From Chryseobacterium sp. Leaf405 (GTDB lineage: Bacteria; Bacteroidota; Bacteroidia; Flavobacteriales; Weeksellaceae): 64,000 nucleotides of DNA. A program made the translations under genes and the position numbers. Below are positions 2,706 through 59,368 of the stretch, piece after piece (positions within the stretch are counted from its first letter, which is position 1; the number at the start of each line of letters is the position of its first letter). The DNA lies in assembly GCF_001425355.1 (NCBI RefSeq), contig NZ_LMQN01000001.1:248490-312489 (forward strand), written 5' to 3'. The notes under the pieces were generated by a model. That model saw only the letters and a list, made by a program, of their open reading frames with translations. It did not search any database and had not been told where the DNA came from.

Positions 2706-4109
2706 TTAATATCCGGGATTTTGCTTAAGCGCAGGATCTGTATTAATTTGTCCTTGTGGAACAGGCATAAAAAGATGATGTTCTTTAATCTGCGCCGTGC
2801 TGTATCCCGGATTATTATTGAAATACGTAGTCATTACCGAAATAGCTTTTCCTGTTCTTACCAGATCAAACCAACGGTGCCCCTCTCCCACAAATTCCAG
2901 TCTTCTCTCTCTGTCTATTTCATTTAAAAGTAAATCTTTAGTGGAAAGACTGACGGTGGAAATTCCTGCTCTGGTTTTGATTTTATTTAAATAGAAATTA
3001 GAATTGGTAAAATCGTTCTGTTCTGCGAAACATTCAGCCATCATTAAATAAACATCGGCTAGCCTTAGAACGACAAAATTACTTCCCCCATCGGCAATGG
3101 TATTGGAAGTTTTCGCCAATTTTTTACTGAACGGAATTCCGTTTGATGTAAGACCTATGTAAGCCGAACGTCTTGTATCGCCCGCTGAATAAAGATTATA
3201 AACTTCTTTGGTCGGAAGATTATGTCCTTTTGCCCCGGAAACCGACCCCGATGGACTGAACATCTGAAAAGCTGTACTCCCTTCTGAGTTTCCATTTAAT
3301 CCTGACGCAAACTGTACATCAAAAATAATCTCTGCGTTGTTTTCATTGGCAACATCGAAAATTTTACTGACATCCGTTAATAATTGATACCCCAACCCTT
3401 CAATCTGATTGAGATACGTTAAAGATTCTGCATATTTTTTCTGTGTTAAAAGCACTTTGCCTAAAATCCCTAAAGCAGCACCTTTTGTCACTCTCCCCTT
3501 CTGAATTGTAGACGTGGGTAATAAAGTAATAGCTTCTTTTAAATCAGTTTCTATTGCAGTATAAACTTCTGAAACAGGTGTCCTTGGCTGACCGAAATAG
3601 TCGTTCACATTAGTAGTTTCTTTTAAAACCAGAGGAACATCACCGAAAGTTCTTACGAGATTAAAATACATCAACGCTCTTAAAAACTTCATTTCGCCTT
3701 TTCTTGAACTTTTCAGAGCATCTGTCATATCAGAGATTTTATCAATTCGTGCCAAAATAATATTGGCCTGCTGGATTCCAATATAGTTGTCTTTCCAAGT
3801 GCTTGCAATTAAACTGTTATTAGGCTGAATGGTAAAAAAATCAAGTTCTCCATACGTGAAAGCGTCGTTTGCAGGAACCTCATCGTAGGTATTGTCAGAT
3901 GGCAATTCTCCCAACGCCGGCATTCCCAATTGGTATTGTCCTGTATACTGAAGCGATCCGTACACTGATGTTATACCCTGCTCGATTTCTGCAGAATTGG
4001 TGTAAAACTGTGATGAAACTTTTTGTGCTTCAGGATTTACATCCAAAAGATCAGATGAGCACGAAGCAATAACTGAAAGGCTGAATATTGTAATAATTAT
4101 TTTTTTCAT
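2706..4109 (-). CDS. SusD/RagB-family nutrient-binding lipoprotein
   Basis: This 467-residue outer-membrane surface lipoprotein is the lid partner of the SusC-like transporter encoded just upstream (3 bp between the two genes). The lipobox VIASC places the lipidated cysteine at residue 17. The SusD fold is indicated by the N-terminal SSDLLDVNPEAQ, the tetratricopeptide-like helices containing MKFLRALMYFNLVRTFGDVPL, and the C-terminal ERRLEFVGEGHRWFDLVRTGKA block, which is highly typical. The length is usual for the family. The substrate cannot be read from the sequence. The neighbouring phosphodiesterase suggests a phosphodiester or lipid-derived ligand, but a glycan is equally possible. Confidence 0.95.
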   Translation of the reverse strand: MKKIIITIFSLSVIASCSSDLLDVNPEAQKVSSQFYTNSAEIEQGITSVYGSLQYTGQYQLGMPALGELPSDNTYDEVPANDAFTYGELDFFTIQPNNSLIASTWKDNYIGIQQANIILARIDKISDMTDALKSSRKGEMKFLRALMYFNLVRTFGDVPLVLKETTNVNDYFGQPRTPVSEVYTAIETDLKEAITLLPTSTIQKGRVTKGAALGILGKVLLTQKKYAESLTYLNQIEGLGYQLLTDVSKIFDVANENNAEIIFDVQFASGLNGNSEGSTAFQMFSPSGSVSGAKGHNLPTKEVYNLYSAGDTRRSAYIGLTSNGIPFSKKLAKTSNTIADGGSNFVVLRLADVYLMMAECFAEQNDFTNSNFYLNKIKTRAGISTVSLSTKDLLLNEIDRERRLEFVGEGHRWFDLVRTGKAISVMTTYFNNNPGYSTAQIKEHHLFMPVPQGQINTDPALKQNPGY

Positions 4110-4112
4110 AAT

Positions 4113-7100
4113 TTAAAATTTAAGATTAAAGCCCATTGAATAAATTCTGGCAACAGGATAATATGCCTGATCGAAACCTTGTGTCAAAACATTATCTGAA
4201 GTGGCATCGATGTTCATTCCTTTATATTTTGAGATGGTAAAAATATTGTTTCCGACAAGGTAGATTTGAGCATTTTCGATTCCTATATTTTCAAGCATAT
4301 TTTTAGGTAAATTAAAAGCTAATCGGAGTGACCTCAATCTTACATAATCTCCATTTTTGAAATAAAGATTTGAAGTTCTTGCTTCTTTTCTGTTATTTGA
4401 AAAATTCATATTTGGCATCCCAAAAAATCCGCCCGGATTGGAAACTGCATTGTAACGGTTATCAAAATAATATTGCGAAGCCATCCCGAAACCTTCCCCG
4501 GATTCTAAAGTGGTCACCGCATCAGCATTGTAAATTCTCTTCCCAAGTTCACTGTATAAACTGAAACTTAATTCAAAAAGACCGTATCTGAAATTGTTAT
4601 TAAAACCGAAAATATATTTAGGAACGCCCGTTCCAAAGCTTCTTTTATCATTAACATCAATTTTTCCGTCTCCGTTCAGATCTTCCATAATATAATCTCC
4701 TACCATTGTTCCCGTAATATGTGGCGAATTGTTGATTTCAGCCTGATTTTTATAAATCCCAAGAATATTGTACCCGTACATTTCACCGATCGAACCGCCT
4801 ACTTTTGTAATCGAGAAATTATTTTCTCCGGTAATAATTTGATTTTGACCATTAGCTAAAGCCAACACTTCATTTTTATTGGTTGAAAAATTTAAACTTC
4901 CTGAATACGTAAAATCTTTTGCAATGCTGAAAGTTTTTGATGCAATTTGCAATTCAAAACCTGAGTTTTTAATTTTACCAATATTTTGCAATGAAGTACT
5001 AAATCCTGACTGTTGCGGAACCGGAACATCGAGTAACAAACCGTCTCTATTCAGTATATAATAGTCTGCAGATATATTTAATACATTTTTAAATAGAGAA
5101 AAATCGACTCCGAAATTATTAGATCTGGACTTTTCCCAGGAAATATTCGGGTTTGGCGCTGTTGCGGTAGTGTAACCGGGAGACAAAGTTCCGCCAAAAT
5201 TATAATTATCCGGATTCATTAAAGAAAGTGCCCCGAAATTCGGGATCTGATTGTTCCCATTGCTTCCTAAACTGTACCTTAATTTTAAATCTGTTACTAC
5301 CTTATTCTCAGGGAAAAAGTTTTCATTACTGATCGTCCAGCCTGCCGAAAATGCGTAGAAATCTCCCCATTTGGAGTTTTTCCCAAAACGTGAAGAGCCG
5401 TCTCTCCGGTAAGATGCCATCACATTATATTTATTATCATACGTATAATTTACCCTTGTAAAATAGGAAAGCAATCTCCACTTATACTGTGTTAAAGTAT
5501 TTTTAAAAGCCGTTCCGCCTGCGATATTTCTGATGCTGTTATCAGGAAATGCTGTTGCTTCTGTTAAAAGCTGCGTATTATCTTCTTGTTGGAAAGACTG
5601 CCCTGCAATTGCATCTACTCTGTGATTTCCCCACTTTCTGTCGAAGGAAAGCAAGTTTTCAATTAAATAATTTTTACGGATATATTCTGTTCTGTTGGCG
5701 AAAGTGACATCCGGGGCGGCAGCTCTGTAAGCTCCAACTGTAGATGGATCAAAGAAATTATATTCATAATTTGAATAATCTCCGCCCACCGAGAATCTGT
5801 ATTTAAAACCTTTCATCAATTCCAGCTCGGTGAAAATATTTCCGAAAGTTTTAAATAAAGTATATTTTCTGTTGGTCATCTCCTGAACGGCAACAGGATT
5901 TTCGACCAAAGCGGCATCTGTAGGTGTGTTTCCTAAAATTTGCTGTGAAATCGTTGGGCTTCCGTCATCATTGTATGCCTTAAAAAACGGATACATCGTT
6001 GTTGCCATCTGTACCGGATTATAACTTCTGGACAAATCTGCGACAATAGTTCCTGTGGCGTAAGATGGAGTCATCGTAATACCTACTTTCCATTTATCCG
6101 TAAGATCAGTTGAAAGATTTACACTTGTTGAAAATTTCTCATAATCTGTACCTATTACTAACCCTTTCTGGTTAAAATAGCTTGTCGTAAAGGCATATTT
6201 ACTTTTATCACTTCCTCCCGTGATATTTAATGAAGTCTGACTTATTGGTGCAGGTCTCATGACGGTATTCAGCCAGTCGGTATCTGTTAATCCCGGTTGC
6301 TTTGCCAAGTAAGGTGCTAAATAATCCGGAATCAATTCCCTCAAAGAAGCGCCTTTGCTTATTCTTGTTGCAGTATCATCTAAACTGCTTCTGTTACTTC
6401 CTTTGGATAGATAATTATTATCTCTTGCCTCTTTAAGGAAAGTCGCCATATCATAAGCATTCACCAGTTTTACATTGTCGCTTCTGGTCTGCATTCCGTA
6501 ATAAGTATCAAAAGAAACATTCATTCTTCCCTTTTTCCCCTGCTTCGTTTCAATAATAATAACTCCGTTAGCACCTCTTGAACCATAAATGGCAGCAGAA
6601 GCGGCATCTTTTAGGATATCAATTTTAGCAATGGAATTAGGGTCTATTGCATTTAGATTTGAACCTTCGGTTAAAGGAAATCCGTCTACCACAATCAATG
6701 GATTTGAACCTGCCGTTAAAGTTCCTATACCTCTCACTCTGATGGATGGTGAGCTTCCCGGACTCGCATTAGCTTGTGTAATCTGAATACCTGTAGCCTT
6801 TCCTGCAATTAAATCTCCGAAATTACTTGAAGCTACGCCTTTCATCTGTTTTTCGTCAATAGAAGAAATAGATCCTGAATTGTTTTTCTTGCTTTGTTTT
6901 CCGTAACCTACCAAAACGACTTCATCAATTGTTTTCTCTTTAGATTTTGCAGTATCTTTTACAGAATTTGCCTCATCTAAAAAGTGAACAGCATTCATTC
7001 TCTGGATATTGGCAATTGTTTTTGGATTCAGGCGAACCGTAACTGTTTTCTGATCAACATTAAAATCTAACCCCACATTTTTCTTCAGATAATCTAAAGA

Positions 7101-37914: not shown

Positions 37915-39342
37915 ATGTATATGATCAATAATGAAGTACAATCGAAGAGGAATTATACCGTTCCGCTGATTACCATTACACTTTTATTTTTTATGTGGGG
38001 ATTCATCACCTGTATGAATGACATTCTTATCCCCTATCTGAAACAGCTTTTCAAACTGACATTCTTTGAATCGATGTTGGTGCAGTTCTGTTTCTTCGGA
38101 GCTTATTTTATAGGTTCATTAATATATTTTCTCGTTTCCACATCGAGTGGAGATCCCATCAACAAAGTCGGATACAAAAAAGGAATTCTTTTCGGGATTT
38201 TCCTTGCGGCATTCGGATGTATTCTATTTTATCCGGCGGCAACTTTCTCTTCTTACGGATTGTTTTTAGGCGCTTTGTTCGTTCTTGGATTAGGATTTAC
38301 TGTTCTTCAGATTACCGCAAATGCTTACGTTTCGCTGTTGGGTTCAGAAGATTCTGCATCGAGCCGACTGAATATGACACAGGCTTTCAATGCATTCGGA
38401 ACTACGATTGCACCGGTCTTAGGCGGACATTTGATTTTTGAATTTTTCTCAGCTGACGACGGTTCGTTTTCTGCGGTGGCAACAAGAATTCCTTATTTAA
38501 TTTTTGCTGGAATTTTATTATTAGTGGCTTTGTTAATTTCGAGAGTAAAGCTTCCATCGTTTCAGACTGCGGAAGAAGAAATCGAAAAAGGTTTCGGAGC
38601 ATTTAAATTTAATCATTTGAAATTCGGGGTTTTGGCGATGTTTTGTTATGTTGGTGGCGAAGTTGCCGTGGGAAGTTTCATCATCAGTTTCCTTGAGCAG
38701 CCACAAATCATGAATCTGAATGAAGTAGTAAGCAAAAATTATCTTTCTCTGTATTGGGGAGGTGCGATGATCGGAAGATTTCTGGGAGCAATTTCTCTGA
38801 ATCATTCGATCAGTCAGGGGAAGAAAGCCCTGTATATGCTAGGTGCGGCGGCAGCGGTTTTCTTAGTGATTTTCAGTATTGTTGATCTCACTTTTTCACA
38901 GATTAGCTTTTTCTTAGTATTTATCGCCCTGAATTTTGTGGCTTTCTTTATCGGAAAAGCTGCTCCGGCAAGAACGTTGTCGATCTTTGCATCAGTCAAT
39001 GTTCTATTATTGATTTCAGCGATGCTGAACCACGGTGAACTGGCAATGTACAGCATTTTAGGAATCGGAATTTTCAACTCTATTATGTTCTCTAACATTT
39101 ATACACTGGCGATTTCAGGATTAGGAAAATATACCAGTCAGGGTTCTTCTTTGGTCGTGATGGCTATTTTGGGAGGCGCCATTGTTCCTATTTTTCAGGG
39201 ATATCTGGCTGACCAGTTTGGCGTTCAGCATTCCTTTATTATTCCTGTGTTCTGTTATATTGTGATCTTGATTTTTGGTGCGTATTGTACTAAATATTTA
39301 AGTCATGTGAAACAGGATGGCGATGCGAAATCGGGACATTAA
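37915..39342 (+). CDS. FucP-type sugar:proton symporter (MFS)
   Basis: This 475-residue inner-membrane transporter shows about twelve hydrophobic segments. The start matches the L-fucose/glucose/galactose permease group: ITLLFFMWGFITCMNDILIP and YFIGSLIYFLVS. Other family marks are GLGFTVLQITANAYVSLLG in the fourth to fifth segment and the late PIFQGYLADQFGVQHSFIIP. It should bring the monosaccharide released by the GH3 enzymes into the cytoplasm with protons. A second ATG lies two codons downstream and cannot be excluded as the start. The gene sits right behind a terminator-like hairpin and is followed by a strong terminator at 39361-39387. Confidence 0.92.
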   Translation: MYMINNEVQSKRNYTVPLITITLLFFMWGFITCMNDILIPYLKQLFKLTFFESMLVQFCFFGAYFIGSLIYFLVSTSSGDPINKVGYKKGILFGIFLAAFGCILFYPAATFSSYGLFLGALFVLGLGFTVLQITANAYVSLLGSEDSASSRLNMTQAFNAFGTTIAPVLGGHLIFEFFSADDGSFSAVATRIPYLIFAGILLLVALLISRVKLPSFQTAEEEIEKGFGAFKFNHLKFGVLAMFCYVGGEVAVGSFIISFLEQPQIMNLNEVVSKNYLSLYWGGAMIGRFLGAISLNHSISQGKKALYMLGAAAAVFLVIFSIVDLTFSQISFFLVFIALNFVAFFIGKAAPARTLSIFASVNVLLLISAMLNHGELAMYSILGIGIFNSIMFSNIYTLAISGLGKYTSQGSSLVVMAILGGAIVPIFQGYLADQFGVQHSFIIPVFCYIVILIFGAYCTKYLSHVKQDGDAKSGH

Positions 39343-39360
39343 GATTTTGTTTTTATATAT

Positions 39361-39387
39361 TAAAACCTGCCGTTGGGCAGGTTTTTT
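39361..39387. terminator. Bidirectional intrinsic terminator
   Basis: Perfect 10-bp stem AAAACCTGCC / GGCAGGTTTT with a 4-nt loop, between the convergent symporter and AbiH genes. Confidence 0.85.
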
Positions 39388-39410
39388 TAACACTTATTTA
39401 ATTACAAATC

Positions 39411-40502
39411 TTAAGTTAAAGTATCACATAAATTTTTTTCAACTACTTTTTCTCTAAACGTGAAGTTTTTGGTAAAGTTTCTATAAATGTTACAGATTAT
39501 ATCGAAATAGTTATCACCTCCATCCCATGCATGATAATACGGTTTTATGGAAATGCAGTTTTCGTGTTCAAAAATTGTATTTAAAAGTGTTCTATCAGAA
39601 TTACCACATGAATGTCCCATTATAGTAGCTTGAAATTTATCCTGAGATAAAAATTGTAAAACATCTTTATAATTACTAGAAAACTGATAATTAATTGATT
39701 TAACATTTTTTAAAAATTCACTATTATTAAAATCCACAATATCTTTACTATGTTTATCTAACTCATCTCCATAGCCAAATATCATCGGATTTTTATGAAA
39801 CTCGTTGATATCACCATGAATATGAATAATAGAAACAGTACAAAAATTTTTACTCGCTAAATGTTTCAATTCATCTAAGTAAACTTTTTCAATAGTATTA
39901 GTATAATTAAAGTTAAGAATAAGAATATTGTTTAATGAAAAAGAATATCTATTTAAATGAGAGAAGTCATTTATATCTGGCGTTAATAAAATATTCTTAA
40001 ATATTTTTGAATTTAATTTTATTGGTTTTATCATTTCATTTGACAAATGCTTACATAATAATTTTTTAATAGATTCGAAATTCTTATTGAGTTGTTTTAA
40101 GTCATCAATGCTTTCTAATTTTTTACACTTATCAAGATGGTTAACTAATGTTTTATAATACTCATTTTCAACATCAACCCAATTTTCAATACTATTAATC
40201 TGTAAAATTTTTTGGAAAAAATCGCCTTTAATTCTATAATCGTACGCTGGTCTGAGATAAGATTTTGCTTCCTTTAGGCCTTTTGTGGCTAATATCTCTT
40301 TTAAATTATATATAGCCATTTGTTTTTGTTGAATAGTAACAAGTTCATCATCATATGTCAGATAATGTGATTTTCTATTAGCATTCAATTTATAACATTC
40401 ATCAAAGAAATTATTCCAAAAGAAATCAACCATATCAGAATATTTCGTTTTTAGACCATGAGCTAAATCAAAACCATTTCCAACTATTATAAGTTTATTC
40501 AT
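39411..40502 (-). CDS. AbiH-family abortive infection protein
   Basis: This 363-residue protein begins with the AbiH signature IIVGNGFDLAHGLKTKYSDM (residues 4-23). It continues with the family pattern of a mid-protein ENEYYKTLV segment, ILILNFNYTNTIEKVY and the late HIHGDINEFHKNPMIFGYGDE. A short C-terminal SCGNSDRTLL block is also present. AbiH proteins from lactococcal plasmids block phage growth after infection; the mechanism is not settled. The gene is more A+T-rich than its neighbours, stands alone and sits between a sugar locus and an unusual palindrome array, all of which fits acquisition by transfer. There is no signal peptide or membrane helix. Confidence 0.88.
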   Translation of the reverse strand: MNKLIIVGNGFDLAHGLKTKYSDMVDFFWNNFFDECYKLNANRKSHYLTYDDELVTIQQKQMAIYNLKEILATKGLKEAKSYLRPAYDYRIKGDFFQKILQINSIENWVDVENEYYKTLVNHLDKCKKLESIDDLKQLNKNFESIKKLLCKHLSNEMIKPIKLNSKIFKNILLTPDINDFSHLNRYSFSLNNILILNFNYTNTIEKVYLDELKHLASKNFCTVSIIHIHGDINEFHKNPMIFGYGDELDKHSKDIVDFNNSEFLKNVKSINYQFSSNYKDVLQFLSQDKFQATIMGHSCGNSDRTLLNTIFEHENCISIKPYYHAWDGGDNYFDIICNIYRNFTKNFTFREKVVEKNLCDTLT

Positions 40503-40894
40503 TATAATTATTCATCATATTTTTAGTTTGTAAATATATTTAATTTAATTCTCAATATTAGATATTATCGTTTAGTTAACTCCTGTTTCCACCTTAAAAT
40601 CTAAGGAAAACAAATAATTATGGCGAAAATCACAACAACTCCTATTTCATTTAAAACACAACTGTTTGTAACAAAACATAATCTCAGGAAAATACAAACA
40701 ACTTGTTTAAACAAAAACAAAAACCCATTTTAGTCCAAACAACCTGTTTTAATTAAAACCAAAAACTGTGCAAGCTCAAACATCATGTTTGCACTAAAAC
40801 ATAAATTTATTTTAATCTAAACATGATGTTTTGTTATAAATAAAAAAGTTTATATCTTTAAAACTTAGAATTAATAACAAAAACACATTAACTG
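40503..40894. other. Gap between divergent AbiH and DUF6261-like genes
   Basis: No coding frame is seen. It is dominated by the five-unit palindrome array at 40654-40831. Further diverged half-sites (AACTCCTGTTT near 40578 and AACTCCTATTT near 40638) lie toward AbiH. Confidence 0.6.
40654..40831. repeat. Array of five AAACA-N3/4-TGTTT palindromes at 41-42 bp spacing
   Basis: Palindromes begin at 40654 (N4), 40696, 40737, 40778 and 40819 (all N3), so the steps are 42, 41, 41 and 41 bp. The 28-nt spacers between them differ, but the first four share AAAAC at spacer positions 6-10. The unit is therefore a diverged 41-bp tandem repeat whose two half-sites are the best kept part. The 41-bp step is close to four helical turns, so all sites would face the same side of the DNA. 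Possible roles are an operator array or a structural site; the 13-bp units are too short for a normal CRISPR repeat. Confidence 0.8.
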
Positions 40895-41584
40895 ATGAAA
40901 ATTACACTATCCACGCTGAGTACAAAAGACTTGGCAACGTTTACTCAAAGATTGATCAATACTTCAACTTCCGGAAGTTATTCTGTAATCAACAATCATC
41001 CCCTTATTAATGACATAAAAAGTAAGTATGCAGACTATGATGCTGTGTACACAAAACAGACCTTCAGCGGAAAAGGGCGTGATGTAAATAGCGCAGATAG
41101 AGAAAGGGACTCTGCTTTTATAAATTTAAAATCGTATCTGAGCAGCTACAGAAAAATGAGCTCACTGCCGAATCACCAATATGCAGAAGACCTGTATCAG
41201 ATATTTAAAGTGCATGGTCTTGATCTCGACCGCATGAGCTATTCTTCCCAAACGGCTCAAATGAAAAAACTGATTGAAACTCTACAGACAACCGAGAATA
41301 TACAGAAAATTACAGCTCTTTCTCTTCACACGGCTTTCAGTGAAATGAAAAGCAAGCAGAATGCTTTTGAAAGTATTTTTGCAGAGCAGGCAGGCGCCAA
41401 CGCCGAACTCCGACAAATGAACAGTGCATCGTCTATCCGCAGAGATCTGGAGAAAACACTGAAATCTTTTCTCAGTCTTATTACAGCCATGAAGGATGTT
41501 CCGGACTGGCAGCTCCTATACTTCGATACCAACGAACTGGTGAAAGCGGCTAAAAATTCTAATACTGCAAAAGAGAAAAACTAA
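40895..41584 (+). CDS. DUF6261-like hypothetical protein
   Basis: This 229-residue cytoplasmic protein is mostly predicted helix and has no signal peptide or membrane segment. Its N terminus (MKITLSTLSTKDLATFTQRL) and the middle (YADYDAVYTKQTFSGKGRDV, then ERDSAFINLKSYLSSY) resemble the DUF6261 group found in Bacteroidota, a tentative assignment. Function is unknown. The palindrome array begins about 240 bp upstream and ends 63 bp before the ATG, so it is the best candidate target of any regulator that binds there. A strong terminator follows at 41611-41638. Confidence 0.65.
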   Translation: MKITLSTLSTKDLATFTQRLINTSTSGSYSVINNHPLINDIKSKYADYDAVYTKQTFSGKGRDVNSADRERDSAFINLKSYLSSYRKMSSLPNHQYAEDLYQIFKVHGLDLDRMSYSSQTAQMKKLIETLQTTENIQKITALSLHTAFSEMKSKQNAFESIFAEQAGANAELRQMNSASSIRRDLEKTLKSFLSLITAMKDVPDWQLLYFDTNELVKAAKNSNTAKEKN

Positions 41585-41610
41585 GAAAATCTAAACATAA
41601 ATAAATATAA

Positions 41611-41638
41611 AGAGGTTAAAATTTTTAACCTCTTTTTT
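41611..41638. terminator. Bidirectional intrinsic terminator
   Basis: Perfect 11-bp stem AGAGGTTAAAA / TTTTAACCTCT followed by a T run. Its 3' part reaches the stop codon of the convergent SDR gene. Confidence 0.85.
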
Positions 41639-42425
41639 AATAGGTATTATTCAGTCCGCCATCCAGAGGAATGCTTGTTCCGGTAATGTAAGAAGCAAAA
41701 TCTGAAGCCAGAAAGGAAACCAAATGACCGTATTCTTCAGGCTTTCCTAATCTTTTCATCGGGATTTTTTCTTCTCTGCCTTTTTTAATTTCTTCCACGG
41801 ATTTATTGGTTTGCTGAGCTTCATGATCGATGAGATTTTTAATTCTTTCAGTATCAAAATATCCGGTCAGAATATTATTGATTGTCACATTATGTTTTGC
41901 AACTTCAATGGAAAGTGTTTTCGACCAGGCAATTACCGCCGAACGAATAGAATTGGAAAGTGCCAGATTAGGAATCGGCTCTTTTACAGACAGTGAAGAA
42001 ACATTAATAATGCGCCCACTCCCCTTTTTGATCATATTGGGTAAAGCGAGATTGGTTGTTTCACACACGGTTTTAAAGAGAAGATCAAATGCTGTTTGAT
42101 ACTCTTCAACGTCTTTATCCTTAGCTAAACCGGGACTTGGACCATTGGTATTATTAACTAAAATATCGACTTCATTTTCATTAAAATACTCTGTAATAAT
42201 CTTTTTAAAATTTTCAAAATCAGAAAAATCCGCCACCAGATATTGATGTTTCTGCTGATCATTAATTATGGGAAGTGTTGATACAAAATCTTTTAATTTT
42301 TCTTCATTTCGAGCCATAACGGTTACGTTGGCTCCGCATTTTGCGAGTTCAATGGCGATCCCTGCTCCTATTCCCTGCGTAGCAGCTCCTACCAAAGCAT
42401 TTTTTGAAGTTAATTGAATATTCAT
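41637..42425 (-). CDS. SDR-family oxidoreductase (3-oxoacyl-ACP reductase-like)
   Basis: This 262-residue classical short-chain dehydrogenase has the cofactor motif GAATQGIGAGIA (about 12-23) and the NNTNG variant of NNAG. The expected catalytic YxxxK tyrosine is not clear: the region reads ALSNSIRSAVIAWSKTL, with serine or asparagine where tyrosine is usual. The catalytic serine region is INVSSLSVKEP. C-terminal features (PMKRLGKPEEYGHLVSFLAS, ITGTSIPLDGGLNNTY) are those of the FabG-like group. The atypical active site means activity may differ from a standard dehydrogenase. It is monocistronic. Confidence 0.88.
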   Translation of the reverse strand: MNIQLTSKNALVGAATQGIGAGIAIELAKCGANVTVMARNEEKLKDFVSTLPIINDQQKHQYLVADFSDFENFKKIITEYFNENEVDILVNNTNGPSPGLAKDKDVEEYQTAFDLLFKTVCETTNLALPNMIKKGSGRIINVSSLSVKEPIPNLALSNSIRSAVIAWSKTLSIEVAKHNVTINNILTGYFDTERIKNLIDHEAQQTNKSVEEIKKGREEKIPMKRLGKPEEYGHLVSFLASDFASYITGTSIPLDGGLNNTY

Positions 42426-42706
42426 AAAAAGTTGATTTTACATTTTGTTGTTAGGTAGGATAAATTTACTTAAAATCGATTAGTTTTTGTATTAAAAATA
42501 TATTTCAGATGGAGTAATAATTATCTTCAAAATTTTGCTTCTTGCTTTGAAACATTCTAAATTACAGTGTTTCATTAAATTTTATTCAAAATCATGTGAA
42601 AAAAAAATTAATTTTATCATTCATAATTTCATTATTAAAAAAGATTAAACATGAATTAAAACAATATAATAATAAAACGAAAACTTTAACCATAAAAATT
42701 CAACGT

Positions 42707-43150
42707 ATGCAAATTAATCCGATCCTGAACGTCAGCGATTATTATTTTGACGTGTTTATGTCAATTTCAGAGGCACTCACTGGCTTTTCTGTCAACGAAC
42801 TGCAATCAACCGGTCTGGCAACCGATTATTACACTCATATTCTGGGGGAAATTGAACTCGCCACTTTTACAGCATTCCTTAATACTTCAAGACGTATATT
42901 AGAATCTTCTTCCGATGAAGAGCAGCTTGTCCATTCTATCAAAACAATCATTCTTTCGGCTCCCGCTACAAAAGGTATTGCAGACAATGTGATTACGCTT
43001 TGGTATCTGGGAACCTGGGAAGGATCTTATGTAAATGACCGGTCTTATAAAGAAGGTCTGGTATGGAATGTCATGCATTCTCATCCACCGGGAGCAAAAC
43101 AGCCGGGCTACAAATCTTGGGCTATTCAACCTGTAAACAGCAAATTATGA
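42707..43150 (+). CDS. FAD-dependent sorbitol dehydrogenase-type small subunit
   Basis: This 147-residue protein resembles the small (gamma) subunit of membrane-bound FAD sugar/polyol dehydrogenases. After helices in residues 5-95 come ITLWYLGTWEG, the SYKEGLVW helix and the C-terminal PGYKSWAIQP block, all typical. In known systems this subunit carries a Tat signal that carries the flavoprotein out of the cell; here no twin-arginine motif is visible. An upstream GTG at 42596 would add 37 lysine-rich residues, so the ATG at 42707 is preferred. The stop codon overlaps the next gene's start (ATGA). Confidence 0.78.
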   Translation: MQINPILNVSDYYFDVFMSISEALTGFSVNELQSTGLATDYYTHILGEIELATFTAFLNTSRRILESSSDEEQLVHSIKTIILSAPATKGIADNVITLWYLGTWEGSYVNDRSYKEGLVWNVMHSHPPGAKQPGYKSWAIQPVNSKL

Positions 43151-45255
43151 ATCCATTAGAAAAATTAGAAAAAAAAGATGTGATCATTGTCGGTACGGGT
43201 ATCGCAGGATCACTTATTGCTAAAATTTTGACCGATCATGTTTTCGATGTATCGAAGGGAAAAATCATCCATCGGACAGAAATTGAAGACAGCAGCTTAG
43301 TTAGGGAATTACAAATCGTGATGTTCGAGGCAGGATTAGAGGCTGGTCTCGAATTGGAATCTGCCGATTCTGCAACAACTTATAATGAGTATATCCGCAC
43401 TTTTTATATGAAAGAAGCGAAAGTTCCCAATTCTCCTTATCCGAATTTAAAGCAGGCTCCTTCGCCTGATGTTTTGGATATGCAGAAAATAATTCCGCCA
43501 TTTCCGGGTAAAAAAGGTTATTTGGTACAGTTTGGTCCGATGCCGTTTGCAAGTGATGCTATTCGAATTGGTGGGGGAACTACCCTTCACTGGCTGGGAA
43601 CTACGCCAAGAATGCTTCCGAATGATTTCAGATTAACCAAAGAATATGGAATTACCATAAATAAACCAAATTCTGAGGAACAAACACCAATCAATTGGCC
43701 AATCGATTACGAAACTTTAAAGCCGTATTATGAAATGGCTGAATTTGAAATCGGTGTTTCAGGAAATGTTTCAAAACAGGAATATCCTATTTCTGAAAGC
43801 ATGGAAGAATATTATGGTGATTATGTTTTTCCGATGGAAGAAATTCCTCAAAGTTATATGGATCATCAAATTGCAAAAACATTGACGGGAACAAGTATAG
43901 AACTAAAATCTGAAAACTTCCCTATTCTGCTGGTTCCGTCTCCACAGGGAAGAAATTCTGTTCCCAATCCAGCATACGGAAAAACAAAAATCATAAAAGC
44001 GGAAGCATCGGATAATCAATACAAATTAACTCTAAACGATTATAAAAAAGAAGATTACAAAGCATTAGGCTCAGTCTGGAATCCGTATATGGGAGAACGT
44101 TGCGAAGGAAATGCATCTTGTGTTCCCATCTGCCCTGTTCAGGCTAAATATAATGCACTGAAAACATTAAAAAAGGCACTTTATAAATTCAATAAAAACG
44201 AAAACCTTGTCTCAAATAAAAACATTCAGGTGAGATCACAAAGTGTCGTGTACAGATTGAGCGTGGATCAGGAAAAGATATCGAAAGTACACATCAGAAG
44301 ATATATTTCTGAAGAGAAAACAAATTTTGTGGAGGAAGTTATTGAGACATCAGATTCTGTTGTTATTCTCGCAGCCAACGCCTTTGAAAATCCTAAAATA
44401 TTGCTCAATTCTAAATATACGGTTGAAGAAAACGGTGTAAAAGTTGAAAAAACCGTTGCTAACAAAAGCGATCAGGTAGGACGAAACCTGATGGATCATA
44501 TGGTGATGCTGACTTGGGGATTATTCCCTGAAGCAGTTTATCCGTTCAGAGGTCCTGGTTCTACAACTAATATTTCGTCTTTCCGGGACGGAAAATTCAG
44601 AAGCGAATATTCCCCATGGATTTCACCTCTCGACAATTGGGGCTGGGGCTGGCCGGCAAATTCACCATCATCCGACCTGCAGGAATTTATCGGAAATGGG
44701 CTTTTTGGAAAAGAACTGAAAGAAGCTTTGGCTGACAGACTTTCCAGACAAGTATTGTTTCATTTTGAAATCGAACAATTACCAAATCCAAATAACCGAG
44801 TAGTTATTAATAATGAATATCTCGATGTATTGGGAATTCCAAGACCTGTCGTTTATTATGAACTGACAGATTATGAAAAAATAGGAATGCAACAGGCAAA
44901 ACTAGCTTCCGATCAAATGTTTAAAACACTTGATATTAAAGATCATACAGAATATAAAGCATCCGACAACAATACTTTTGTGTATGATGATGTGAGATAT
45001 TCTTATAACGGTGCCGGGCATATCGTGGGAACTCACAGAATGGGTGATTCACCGGAAGATTCGGTAACCAATAGCTATTGTAAATCCTGGGACCACTCGA
45101 ATTTATACATCGTAGGCGCAGGAAACATGACGACGCTAGGAACATCAAACCCAACTTTAACATTATCCGCATTTACCATCCGTTCTGTAGAATCTATTTT
45201 AACAGATCTTGAGCAAAAATTTAAAACAGAAAAACATGAGACAAAAGCTTATTAA
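43147..45255 (+). CDS. GMC-family FAD oxidoreductase with iron-sulfur cysteine motif
   Basis: This 702-residue flavoenzyme carries the FAD motif GTGIAG (16-21) and the GMC block IGGGTTLHWLG (141-151). Its C-terminal active site is GAGHIVGTHRMG (622-633, H625/H630) with NPT at 668-670. The cysteines C319, C325 and C329 (C-x5-C-x3-C, then P) match the 3Fe-4S ligand pattern known in the catalytic subunit of Burkholderia FAD glucose dehydrogenase. It should oxidise a sugar or alcohol and pass electrons to a carrier. No cytochrome c subunit gene follows. It overlaps the small-subunit gene by 4 bp and the ferritin-like gene by 20 bp, showing tight co-expression. Confidence 0.9.
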   Translation: MNPLEKLEKKDVIIVGTGIAGSLIAKILTDHVFDVSKGKIIHRTEIEDSSLVRELQIVMFEAGLEAGLELESADSATTYNEYIRTFYMKEAKVPNSPYPNLKQAPSPDVLDMQKIIPPFPGKKGYLVQFGPMPFASDAIRIGGGTTLHWLGTTPRMLPNDFRLTKEYGITINKPNSEEQTPINWPIDYETLKPYYEMAEFEIGVSGNVSKQEYPISESMEEYYGDYVFPMEEIPQSYMDHQIAKTLTGTSIELKSENFPILLVPSPQGRNSVPNPAYGKTKIIKAEASDNQYKLTLNDYKKEDYKALGSVWNPYMGERCEGNASCVPICPVQAKYNALKTLKKALYKFNKNENLVSNKNIQVRSQSVVYRLSVDQEKISKVHIRRYISEEKTNFVEEVIETSDSVVILAANAFENPKILLNSKYTVEENGVKVEKTVANKSDQVGRNLMDHMVMLTWGLFPEAVYPFRGPGSTTNISSFRDGKFRSEYSPWISPLDNWGWGWPANSPSSDLQEFIGNGLFGKELKEALADRLSRQVLFHFEIEQLPNPNNRVVINNEYLDVLGIPRPVVYYELTDYEKIGMQQAKLASDQMFKTLDIKDHTEYKASDNNTFVYDDVRYSYNGAGHIVGTHRMGDSPEDSVTNSYCKSWDHSNLYIVGAGNMTTLGTSNPTLTLSAFTIRSVESILTDLEQKFKTEKHETKAY

Positions 45256-58489: not shown

Positions 58490-59368
58490 TTATGAATTAC
58501 GTCTGCCTCCAAATCCTGATCTTCCGGAACCTGAAGCATTTCCGCCGCTATGAGAAGCCTGACCGCCCATACGAGCAATTCTAGTACGTTCTGCCTTACT
58601 CATTGAAGCGAAACCTCTTTTTGAAGTTCCAGAACCTGATCCTGAATTGGAGCCACGACCTGAACCGCTGTTGCCGCTATTTCCTGATCTGGAATTTGAG
58701 CCGGAATTTCCTCTTCCGCTGCCTGATCCTGATCTTCCTGAATTGGAGTTTGAATTAGATCTTGACCCTGAATTGGATCCCGATCTTCCTGAGTTTCCTG
58801 AATTTGATGATCTTCCATTGTTGCTTCCGCTGCCTTTCGGTCTCCCTGGATTATCGTGTCTGCGGTCATAATTATCATTGTCTGATGATCCTCTTGACGA
58901 TCTTCCACTTCCGCCTGATCTTGAACCAGAACCGGAGTTAGAATTAGATCTCGAGTTGGATCCTGAATTTGAACGACCTGTTGAACCGCCTCTGTTTCCG
59001 CCACTTCCAGAAGTAAATCTTCCTTGATTATCTCTTTGCTGGTTTCCGTTTCCGCTATTTCCTCGGCTTCTGCCTCTTCCACCTCCTCTGTTGTCTTCAT
59101 CTTCGTCGTCATCATCATCGTCATAATCTTCATCGTAGTCATCATCTTCATAATCGTCGTCATAACTATTTTCATAATCATCGTCGTCGTAATCCTCGTC
59201 TTCATCAAAATAATCTTCATATTCTGAGAAGTCATCATCATAATCTTCATCATTTTGGGCATCTTTATATCCATGATCATACCCTAATTGATAAATTTCT
59301 TCAAGATTACTGCTTGATGAATTTGAGTTTCCTCTGGAACTACGGTTGTTTGAATTTCTAGTGTTCAT
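58490..59368 (-). CDS. Low-complexity acidic/Ser-Gly-Asn protein with C-terminal KGG motif
   Basis: This 292-residue protein is mostly disordered. After a short N terminus and a YQLGYDHGYKDAQ helix (about 27-39) comes a run of Asp, Glu and Tyr (about 40-93). A long Ser/Gly/Arg/Asn region follows (about 94-250). The C-terminal segment (about 253-280) reads KRGFASMSKAERTRIARMGG and QASHSGG, a match to the KGG/Con-10 stress motif (usual form: GFASMDPEKRREIASKGG). KGG proteins accumulate under desiccation or starvation. The charge layout, acidic then basic-neutral, suggests phase-separating or DNA/protein-shielding behaviour, which is speculation. The repetitive codons also create long shadow frames. 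Confidence 0.85.
   Translation of the reverse strand: MNTRNSNNRSSRGNSNSSSSNLEEIYQLGYDHGYKDAQNDEDYDDDFSEYEDYFDEDEDYDDDDYENSYDDDYEDDDYDEDYDDDDDDEDEDNRGGGRGRSRGNSGNGNQQRDNQGRFTSGSGGNRGGSTGRSNSGSNSRSNSNSGSGSRSGGSGRSSRGSSDNDNYDRRHDNPGRPKGSGSNNGRSSNSGNSGRSGSNSGSRSNSNSNSGRSGSGSGRGNSGSNSRSGNSGNSGSGRGSNSGSGSGTSKRGFASMSKAERTRIARMGGQASHSGGNASGSGRSGFGGRRNS

Follow-up and report, generated by a model that had tools for sequence, protein, structure and literature searches.

A near-fixed 41/42-bp period in tandem DNA arrays upstream of DUF6261 genes in Bacteroidota, a putative gene-plus-DNA-site module

In the window, the whole 64-kb stretch of DNA analyzed here, five short palindromes follow one another at almost constant steps between a gene for an abortive-infection protein and a gene for a protein of the DUF6261 family. 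The locus raises the question of what such an array does and which protein would read it. The features are listed by position.

39411–40502, minus strand: AbiH-family abortive-infection protein, 363 aa, the divergent neighbor on the array side
40654–40831, plus strand (the orientation in which the spacer reads TAAAACAGAA): tandem array with a unit of 41 bp (first step 42), five dyads AAACA-N3/4-TGTTT with 28 nt between them
40654–40667, strandless: dyad 1, AAACA-N4-TGTTT with a 4-base center, followed by the step of 42
40696–40708, strandless: dyad 2, 3-base center
40737–40749, strandless: dyad 3, 3-base center
40778–40790, strandless: dyad 4, 3-base center
40819–40831, strandless: dyad 5, 3-base center, its right arm running into the TTTG of the putative promoter
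40714–40719, plus strand: conserved spacer half-site AAAACA of unit 2
40673–40678, 40755–40760 and 40796–40801: equivalents of that half-site in unit 1 (AAAACA), unit 3 (AAAACC) and unit 4 (AAAACA)
40830–40859, plus strand: putative Bacteroidota-type promoter of the DUF6261 gene, a pattern match with TTTG at 40830–40833 and TATCTTT at 40853–40859
40895–41584, plus strand: DUF6261 protein, 229 aa, of the family to which such arrays are linked

The AbiH protein matches PF14253 at 1.5e-31 (110.9 bits against a gathering score of 30.9) and the AbiH model of PADLOC at 1.1e-8, and the DUF6261 protein matches PF19775 at 7.2e-23 (81.7 bits; gathering score, 27). A search with the pattern AAACAN{3,4}TGTTT found five sites in the whole 64-kb window, all within the array and separated by steps of 42, 41, 41 and 41 bp. 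The number expected in the 392-bp intergenic region is 0.029, and no more than two occurred in any of 20,000 first-order Markov resamples; the five dyads are therefore no chance cluster. One hundred shuffles of the whole window gave the dyad pattern 1.0 times on average and five times at most. Genome-wide, the spaced double dyad has eight forward matches versus none for the reversed control pattern. The original prediction of five palindromes at 41–42 bp steps is thus confirmed by the pattern search and the chance models, as is its description of 28-nt spacers with AAAAC at positions 6–10, a motif present in all four spacers. A self-similarity scan of the 64 kb at lags of 25–70 detected two repeats only, the array itself (at 40641, lag 41) and another near 59.07 kb. 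The latter, at 59072–59200, has lags of 27, 30, 33, 39, 42, 45 and further values, all multiples of three, and is probably coding.

Such series occur elsewhere in the same genome (4.49 Mb), as the original prediction required: a sequence model of the double unit detected seven arrays in all, namely that of the window and L012, L013, L014, L015, L016 and L019. The copies used in the alignment hold the 41-bp register, and the aligned unit reads AAACAnnnTGTTTnAAnTAAAACAGAAAnnTnTTTtAGTYn. Its spacer contains a second AAACA at positions 20–24 and a weaker TGTTT-like stretch at positions 31–35, and the half-sites, about four per unit, follow one another at 8, 11, 11 and 11 bp. Across the 21 double units of the seven arrays, unit columns 19–28 (consensus AAAAACAGAA) hold 0.9–2.0 bits. 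The notion that the dyad is conserved and the spacer is not had to be abandoned, as these spacer columns are comparable in information to the dyad arms. The spacer is not free; it carries another conserved half-site. In L019 (4886–5150), the units alternate in a higher-order pattern of 82 bp.

The DUF6261 gene downstream provides the link to other genomes. With the window DUF6261 protein as the query, 67 named loci were collected from Chryseobacterium, Epilithonimonas, Kaistella, Riemerella, Tannerella (L140 and L141) and one member of the Flavobacteriaceae; the assignment of the window's family to the Weeksellaceae is inferred from the nearest named loci (Chryseobacterium and Epilithonimonas). 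In the 400 bp upstream of 66 DUF6261 genes (L141, with 243 bp upstream, was left out), the top lag between 20 and 80 was 42 in 43 regions and 41 in 19. Fifty-six of the 66 regions scored above the 99th percentile of 654 control stretches from the same loci, in which the top lag was 42 in 24 cases and 41 was outside the eight commonest. At a score limit of 0.6, 36 matches at lags 41/42 lay within 500 bp upstream of the 66 genes, and the other 532 kb of these loci contained zero 41/42-bp repeats. Fifty-eight other loci (264 kb) gave one 41/42-bp match at this limit, an orphan array of L322. Each of the three DUF6261 genes detected in the window's own genome is preceded by a 41-bp array, and the three differ in sequence, the L017 array being GC-rich and the L018 array of the GTCCCAnnnTGGGA type. 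Arrays of L017-type loci stop just tens of bases short of the ATG and may be transcribed, which counts against a binding site that controls the promoter.

PF19775 occurs in 11 of 395 genomes drawn from the phylum, in 40 of 344 of one order and in 6 of 164 of another, and nine of the 344 have at least 10 matches each. Throughout the phylum, the top lag was 42 in 95 and 41 in 71 of 191 upstream regions (166/191), a count that keeps near-identical loci and drops six loci without an open frame by the start-codon rule (L149, L155, L175, L178, L210 and L213); the upstream region of L244 is largely N. L175 and L178 are DUF6261 pseudogenes with stop codons, upstream of which repeat arrays are still visible. 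Outside the window's family, that is, in genomes of other family codes, 81 of 101 regions had a top lag of 41/42 (40 at 42 and 41 at 41). In the remaining 20 the top lag was a different one, which was 40 in four, and no array was found at, for example, L150, L151, L159, L160, L182, L188 and L191. L229 has an array of 40-bp period with units up to 98% alike. Arrays comprise a median of 4 units, three being the floor of the method, and 11 at most; 137 distinct arrays were kept above 0.58. The comparison of these upstream regions shows that a 41/42-bp array directly upstream is linked to most DUF6261 genes examined in Bacteroidota. As to related loci, the original prediction stood in part: DUF6261 loci keep the array and its period, and the dyad sequence is not always kept.

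Adjacent units within an array are up to 99% alike, and arrays of different genes look unrelated. For 135 arrays (9,045 pairs), consensus units were compared without gaps, which understates the likeness of 41- versus 42-bp units, and their similarity was 0.41–0.43 where the proteins share less than 40% identity, against a null value of 0.41. Similarity rises with protein identity, to 0.46–0.50 at 40–70%, 0.57 at 70–80%, 0.71 at 80–90% and 0.90 above 90%. Among 181 pairs of paralogues from the same genome (median protein identity 0.19; named loci not included), the median unit similarity was 0.43, and 8% of the pairs exceeded the 95th percentile of the null. The choice between 41 and 42 bp is common to only about half of the pairs below 70% protein identity. 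On these comparisons, the period is a more stable trait than the sequence.

Dyads are in excess as well. The best dyad scored 0.658 in 116 arrays versus 0.546 after shuffling of columns, a control that keeps composition only; the scores were taken from the best three units per array. A second dyad lies 20–21 bp off, half a period, in 28 of the 116 arrays versus 7.3 expected. Distances of 9–11 bp are also in excess (45 versus 30.9 expected), and half-period dyads are therefore not the whole pattern. The best dyad exceeds the 95th percentile of the shuffles in 39% of the arrays, so that by this score some arrays lack a clear palindrome.

TTTG is the −33 element of the Bacteroidota-type promoter. 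The pattern TTTG-N17-22-TAnnTTT was found at most 160 bp from the start in 60 of 77 upstream regions of the window's family (1.7 expected from shuffling of single bases), and the version with the full TAnnTTTG in 35 of 77 (0.3 expected from the same control). The available text of a study on Flavobacterium psychrophilum reports TAnnTTTG as the −7 consensus (PMC9723704). In 38 of the 60 regions, the TTTG forms the last four bases of a TGTTTG half-site, and in the window dyad 5 overlaps the putative −33 TTTG at 40830–40833, so that a protein on dyad 5 would be in direct contact with the putative promoter. The proposal that the array controls the DUF6261-like gene holds up in several respects: the gene is a true DUF6261 member, arrays precede most members of the family, and the last dyad overlaps the putative −33 box. 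Counting against promoter control are L012 and L014, which lie between convergent genes, a setting in which a promoter is not expected.

We favor the reading of a self-specific array for protein binding, which would seed a regular nucleoprotein complex and control the promoter of the DUF6261 gene, with the DUF6261 protein as the likeliest binder, and we give this reading an even chance of being right. In a two-part module, the array of 41/42-bp dyad units would be the cis-acting DNA half and the DUF6261 gene immediately downstream of it the other. The protein would occupy neighboring dyads along the same face of the helix as a regular cooperative filament, with which the step of about four helical turns is compatible, and the filament would reach into the DUF6261 promoter and make expression autoregulated. 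Linkage, fixed period, drifting sequence, dyad excess and, in the window's family, frequent overlap with the promoter pattern are shown by the comparison of loci. Each gene has its own array, and within a genome these arrays mostly bear no relation to one another; it is hard to see how one sequence-specific host factor could recognize all of them. With a near-fixed period but mostly unrelated sequences, each array would be expected to have a sequence-specific reader of its own. The neighboring DUF6261 protein would be the likeliest such reader, as it is the product of the only constantly linked gene found. The six further arrays of the window's type in the same genome would be trans sites of the same protein. 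Candidate downstream uses of the module include autoregulated DNA organization, partition-like clustering and control of adjacent defense genes.

Other constant partners were sought around the gene. The largest cluster of neighbors covers at most 16 of 61 loci, which leaves no constant second gene. Two Xre-HTH proteins were considered as constant partners and rejected, having relatives in only 12/67 and 2/72 loci. In L017, the GC-rich array and the DUF6261 gene are immediately preceded, on one and the same strand, by a gene of the Xre HTH type (3935–4540) with a coiled-coil-like tail, and a relative stands beside L146 and L149.

The DUF6261 protein itself gives little indication of how it would contact DNA. 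The models show an all-helical bundle in two subfamilies, with a mean pLDDT of 83.9 and 91.4. Foldseek searches with two DUF6261 models returned no match at E ≤ 0.001 among 644 and 794 matches in the PDB, nor among 873 matches to viral structures. The VIA matches are generic helical bundles with Z ≤ 10.0, the middling ones including the four-helix S23-family protein 2rld (Z 8.2, 95 residues at 3.2 Å), and the best E-values of the DUF6261 profile against PDB sequences were 0.037 and 0.1. No recognizable DNA-binding fold was found by Pfam, Foldseek or VIA; in Pfam, the window protein matches DUF6261 only, with no ParB, Y1_Tnp, WYL, HTH or transposase match. This, a median pI of 6.7 (186 DUF6261 proteins) and a best-dyad excess limited to 39% of the arrays count against the favored reading, as do the 20 of 101 regions outside the window's family with another top lag. 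In the wider alignment, D69, R72 and D73 (L017 numbering) are near-invariant; L132, with stops in its stretch, was left out of alignment A2. The family is not known to PADLOC, with no match at E ≤ 1e-5 among 38 DUF6261 proteins. At a limit of 1, the best E-value of these proteins was 7.8e-5 (Cas12a, 2 members), SduA was matched by 8 members (best 4.1e-4), and the window protein had no match. In the literature searched, DUF6261 is mentioned in one paper and PF19775 in none, and the portions of text that it provided contain no description of 41/42-bp arrays linked to DUF6261; the accessible part of a paper on REP palindromes (PMC3733652) contains nothing on such arrays.

A role as a plasmid partition gene was rejected: the sole plasmid match is Riemerella NZ_CP072187.1 (L179), and there is none for the L017 type. 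This record, labeled as a plasmid, may be a piece of chromosome because mnmG and ybeY lie around its DUF6261 gene. An assignment as a phage gene was likewise discarded, with one weak match only, obtained with an L017-type query. It is a DUF6261-like match at 4382–4858 of MT837725.1 (28% identity, E 1e-4), a 6.3-kb record labeled as bacteriophage.

A bolder form of the favored reading, which we put forward tentatively and as less likely than not, is that DUF6261 constitutes a new class of array-binding helix-bundle proteins, each reading its own tandem array. The array would serve as a phased track of 41/42 bp, the geometry of the protein fixing the period and the sequence being free to drift, so that paralogues in the same cell would become mutually blind. 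This would amount to a specificity system of the centromere kind, present in multiple copies on the chromosomes of Bacteroidota and, in the window's family, joined to defense genes.

The defense genes on the far side of the array suggest another reading, in which the array is the shared operator of divergent units and a DUF6261-centered switch controls the phage-defense gene beyond, AbiH in the window. We consider this unlikely, although the window's family supplies evidence in its favor. Mechanical calls of upstream ORFs of at least 110 aa (at least 90 aa outside the window's family) gave one ORF in 61 of 66 named loci, and in 58 of the 61 this first ORF beyond the array runs divergently. The 62 upstream proteins, window AbiH included, matched 194 PADLOC families versus 11 for 60 downstream proteins, many of the matched families being redundant AAA models, and 61 second upstream genes matched 93. 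When every second of the 61 was examined singly, 14 of 30 upstream proteins matched PADLOC models at E ≤ 1e-5; among the downstream proteins, the largest family had 7 of 60 members (HTH_VI). Pfam families of the upstream neighbors include AAA_21 (8), AAA_15 (7), PIN_8 (4), Vsr (2), TIR_2 (2), T5orf172 (2), NACHT (2), GmrSD_N (1) and AbiH (1), among others. Y1_Tnp is present in 2 of the 62, as separate genes. RAYT-like Y1 transposase genes, recognized by eye, adjoin the DUF6261 loci L051, L099, L100 and L107, and in L051 GC-rich palindromes lie near this gene.

What speaks against a shared operator is that the trait is local. Outside the window's family, 25 of 39 upstream neighbors are co-directional, and PADLOC matches are few and scattered, the 25 families listed each being matched by one of 32 proteins (of the 39 ORFs, seven short or array-derived ones were left out by eye). 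The linkage to defense does not hold there and is therefore a local habit rather than the core of the module. The defense genes also vary by locus, and the ten scanned genes that flank the orphan arrays of the window's genome are ordinary by Pfam.

These orphans, the six other arrays of the window's genome, are not beside DUF6261 genes. They occupy convergent (L012 and L014), divergent (L013) and tandem (L015, L016 and L019) intergenic regions. By Pfam, the ten scanned flanking genes encode luciferase-like, TROVE/Ro60, glyoxalase, M23 and M1 peptidase, RecN-like SMC_N, DUF5687, alpha-L-fucosidase and cupin proteins, with one sub-threshold match only. At the fucosidase locus, L016 has four 41-bp units and G011 (L077) about nine 42-bp units, which are one base per unit apart, in the dyad center; the neighborhoods match by eye. 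Orphans as leftovers of DUF6261 loci were rejected, as a single one of the 67 flanking ORFs of nine orphan loci shares more than 45% identity with an ORF of the 67 named DUF6261 loci. When the DUF6261 upstream regions were ranked by shared 9-mers, the window array came first, alone or in a tie, for three of the six own orphans and second for two; for L014 it was not among the top ten. For orphans of other genomes, the best own-genome DUF6261 array ranks fourth in G018, ninth in G009 and outside the top ten in G011 and G001. The match of an orphan to a cognate gene is suggestive only, and the argument for trans sites drawn from it is weak.

Six arrays without a DUF6261 gene could also indicate that the arrays are a dispersed mobile minisatellite like REP/BIME, with DUF6261 as a helper that spreads or maintains them. 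Downstream of recN, the window's genome and G009 (L322) have arrays of different type in the same intergenic place, and in 13 of 30 loci the spacer between recN and DUF5687 is 51–57 bp long and arrayless (the DUF5687 gene was found by pattern in 19 of the 30; L322 was missed and its spacer read by eye). Upstream of TROVE, the window's genome is the sole carrier of an array among 30. Thus, two such sites are without an array in most of the relatives examined, and the expectation that dyads would be kept in relatives fails there; judged from these loci, arrays can differ in presence and type between relatives. We nevertheless rate a mobile minisatellite as quite improbable. Its copy number is low (seven), its arrays are multi-unit, and DUF6261 has no transposase match. 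Moreover, arrays persist throughout the phylum at a similar place near the start of the gene, and spreading by itself would not account for this. In this genus, intergenic regions are generally variable; five further recN loci, with longer spacers of 401–1,191 bp, have no array in the 500 bp scanned.

It is very improbable that the array is transcribed and acts as RNA hairpins bound by the helical DUF6261 protein, an idea to which short-loop dyads seen by eye, arrays that end close to the ATG, and the helix bundle with its VIA match to 2rld lend some appeal: on the gene's strand the dyad arms have no excess of G-T over A-C mismatches (123 versus 181, although the base composition of the strand or an antisense RNA could likewise account for the A-C excess), the window arms are A/T-rich 5-mers, in the window's family the gene is separated from the array by the promoter pattern, and RNAalifold gave no consensus pairs for alignment A1. 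Sense-strand hairpins were thus rejected, with both the G-T excess and a consensus fold absent. An Rfam element was also dismissed; none of three reported matches in 38000–43500 exceeded the gathering score, and none lay in the array.

The favored reading, an array bound by the DUF6261 protein, was compared with known systems. The sopC site of the F plasmid lies near the gene of its binding protein, SopB (ParB_F). In the part of the source at hand, sopC (parS_F) is described as twelve 43-bp repeats that hold ten 16-bp inverted repeats (PMC6238139). The repeat period is nearly the same, and the multi-dyad array fits cooperative assembly. By contrast, the DUF6261 module is chromosomal in the genomes seen, often multi-copy and with arrays upstream of the gene, and its arrays have a median of 4 units and are mostly unrelated between copies. 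The window DUF6261 protein has no Pfam ParB match, and there is no constant ParA-like neighbor, one being recognized by eye at a single locus (L092). Partition of the ParABS or sopC type, with a linked ParB-family protein and a ParA partner, was rejected on these grounds. A ParB parS site read as TGTTT-N6-AAACA inside the unit was set aside: its arms resemble those of parS, but its core differs. By analogy, the DUF6261 array may resemble the F-plasmid centromere in working principle, not in membership, and this is the closest published likeness.

In StbA of R388 and pSK1 Par, the gene of a single small protein lies behind an upstream direct-repeat array that is both centromere and operator; such systems are plasmid-borne and their proteins have an HTH. 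The DUF6261 module shares the layout of one small protein gene behind a direct-repeat array but is chromosomal and lacks a recognized HTH. The likeness to REP/BIME-RAYT is that a gene is accompanied by palindromic repeats of its own, which recur at other places in the genome. DUF6261, however, is not a Y1 transposase by Pfam, the copies are few, and the arrays are multi-unit with 41/42 bp, and the assignment was rejected for want of the associated Y1 (HUH) transposase of IS200 type. CapW and BrxR are divergent regulators that read the control regions of defense systems. Here the likeness is that, in the window's family, the DNA separating a small gene from a divergent defense gene may be regulatory; unlike them, the DUF6261 protein of the window matches neither WYL nor HTH, and the neighbors of the family elsewhere in the phylum are mostly ordinary. 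A CRISPR array was rejected, as the dyad centers vary and the spacers are conserved between units and arrays. Each known array system tested departs in a defining feature, which does not by itself prove the mechanism new, and the arrays of this spacing upstream of most DUF6261 genes examined point to an undescribed gene-plus-DNA-site system. Its kinship with known kinds depends on the result of binding experiments.

An uncharacterized family with at least 10 copies in some Bacteroidota genomes thereby gains a concrete partner, an array of near-fixed period and drifting sequence. In the window's family, the arrays also mark the places of divergent phage-defense genes. Whether each DUF6261 protein binds its own array is a directly testable question, and over a hundred natural protein-array pairs would allow the study of how DNA specificity changes under a fixed geometry.
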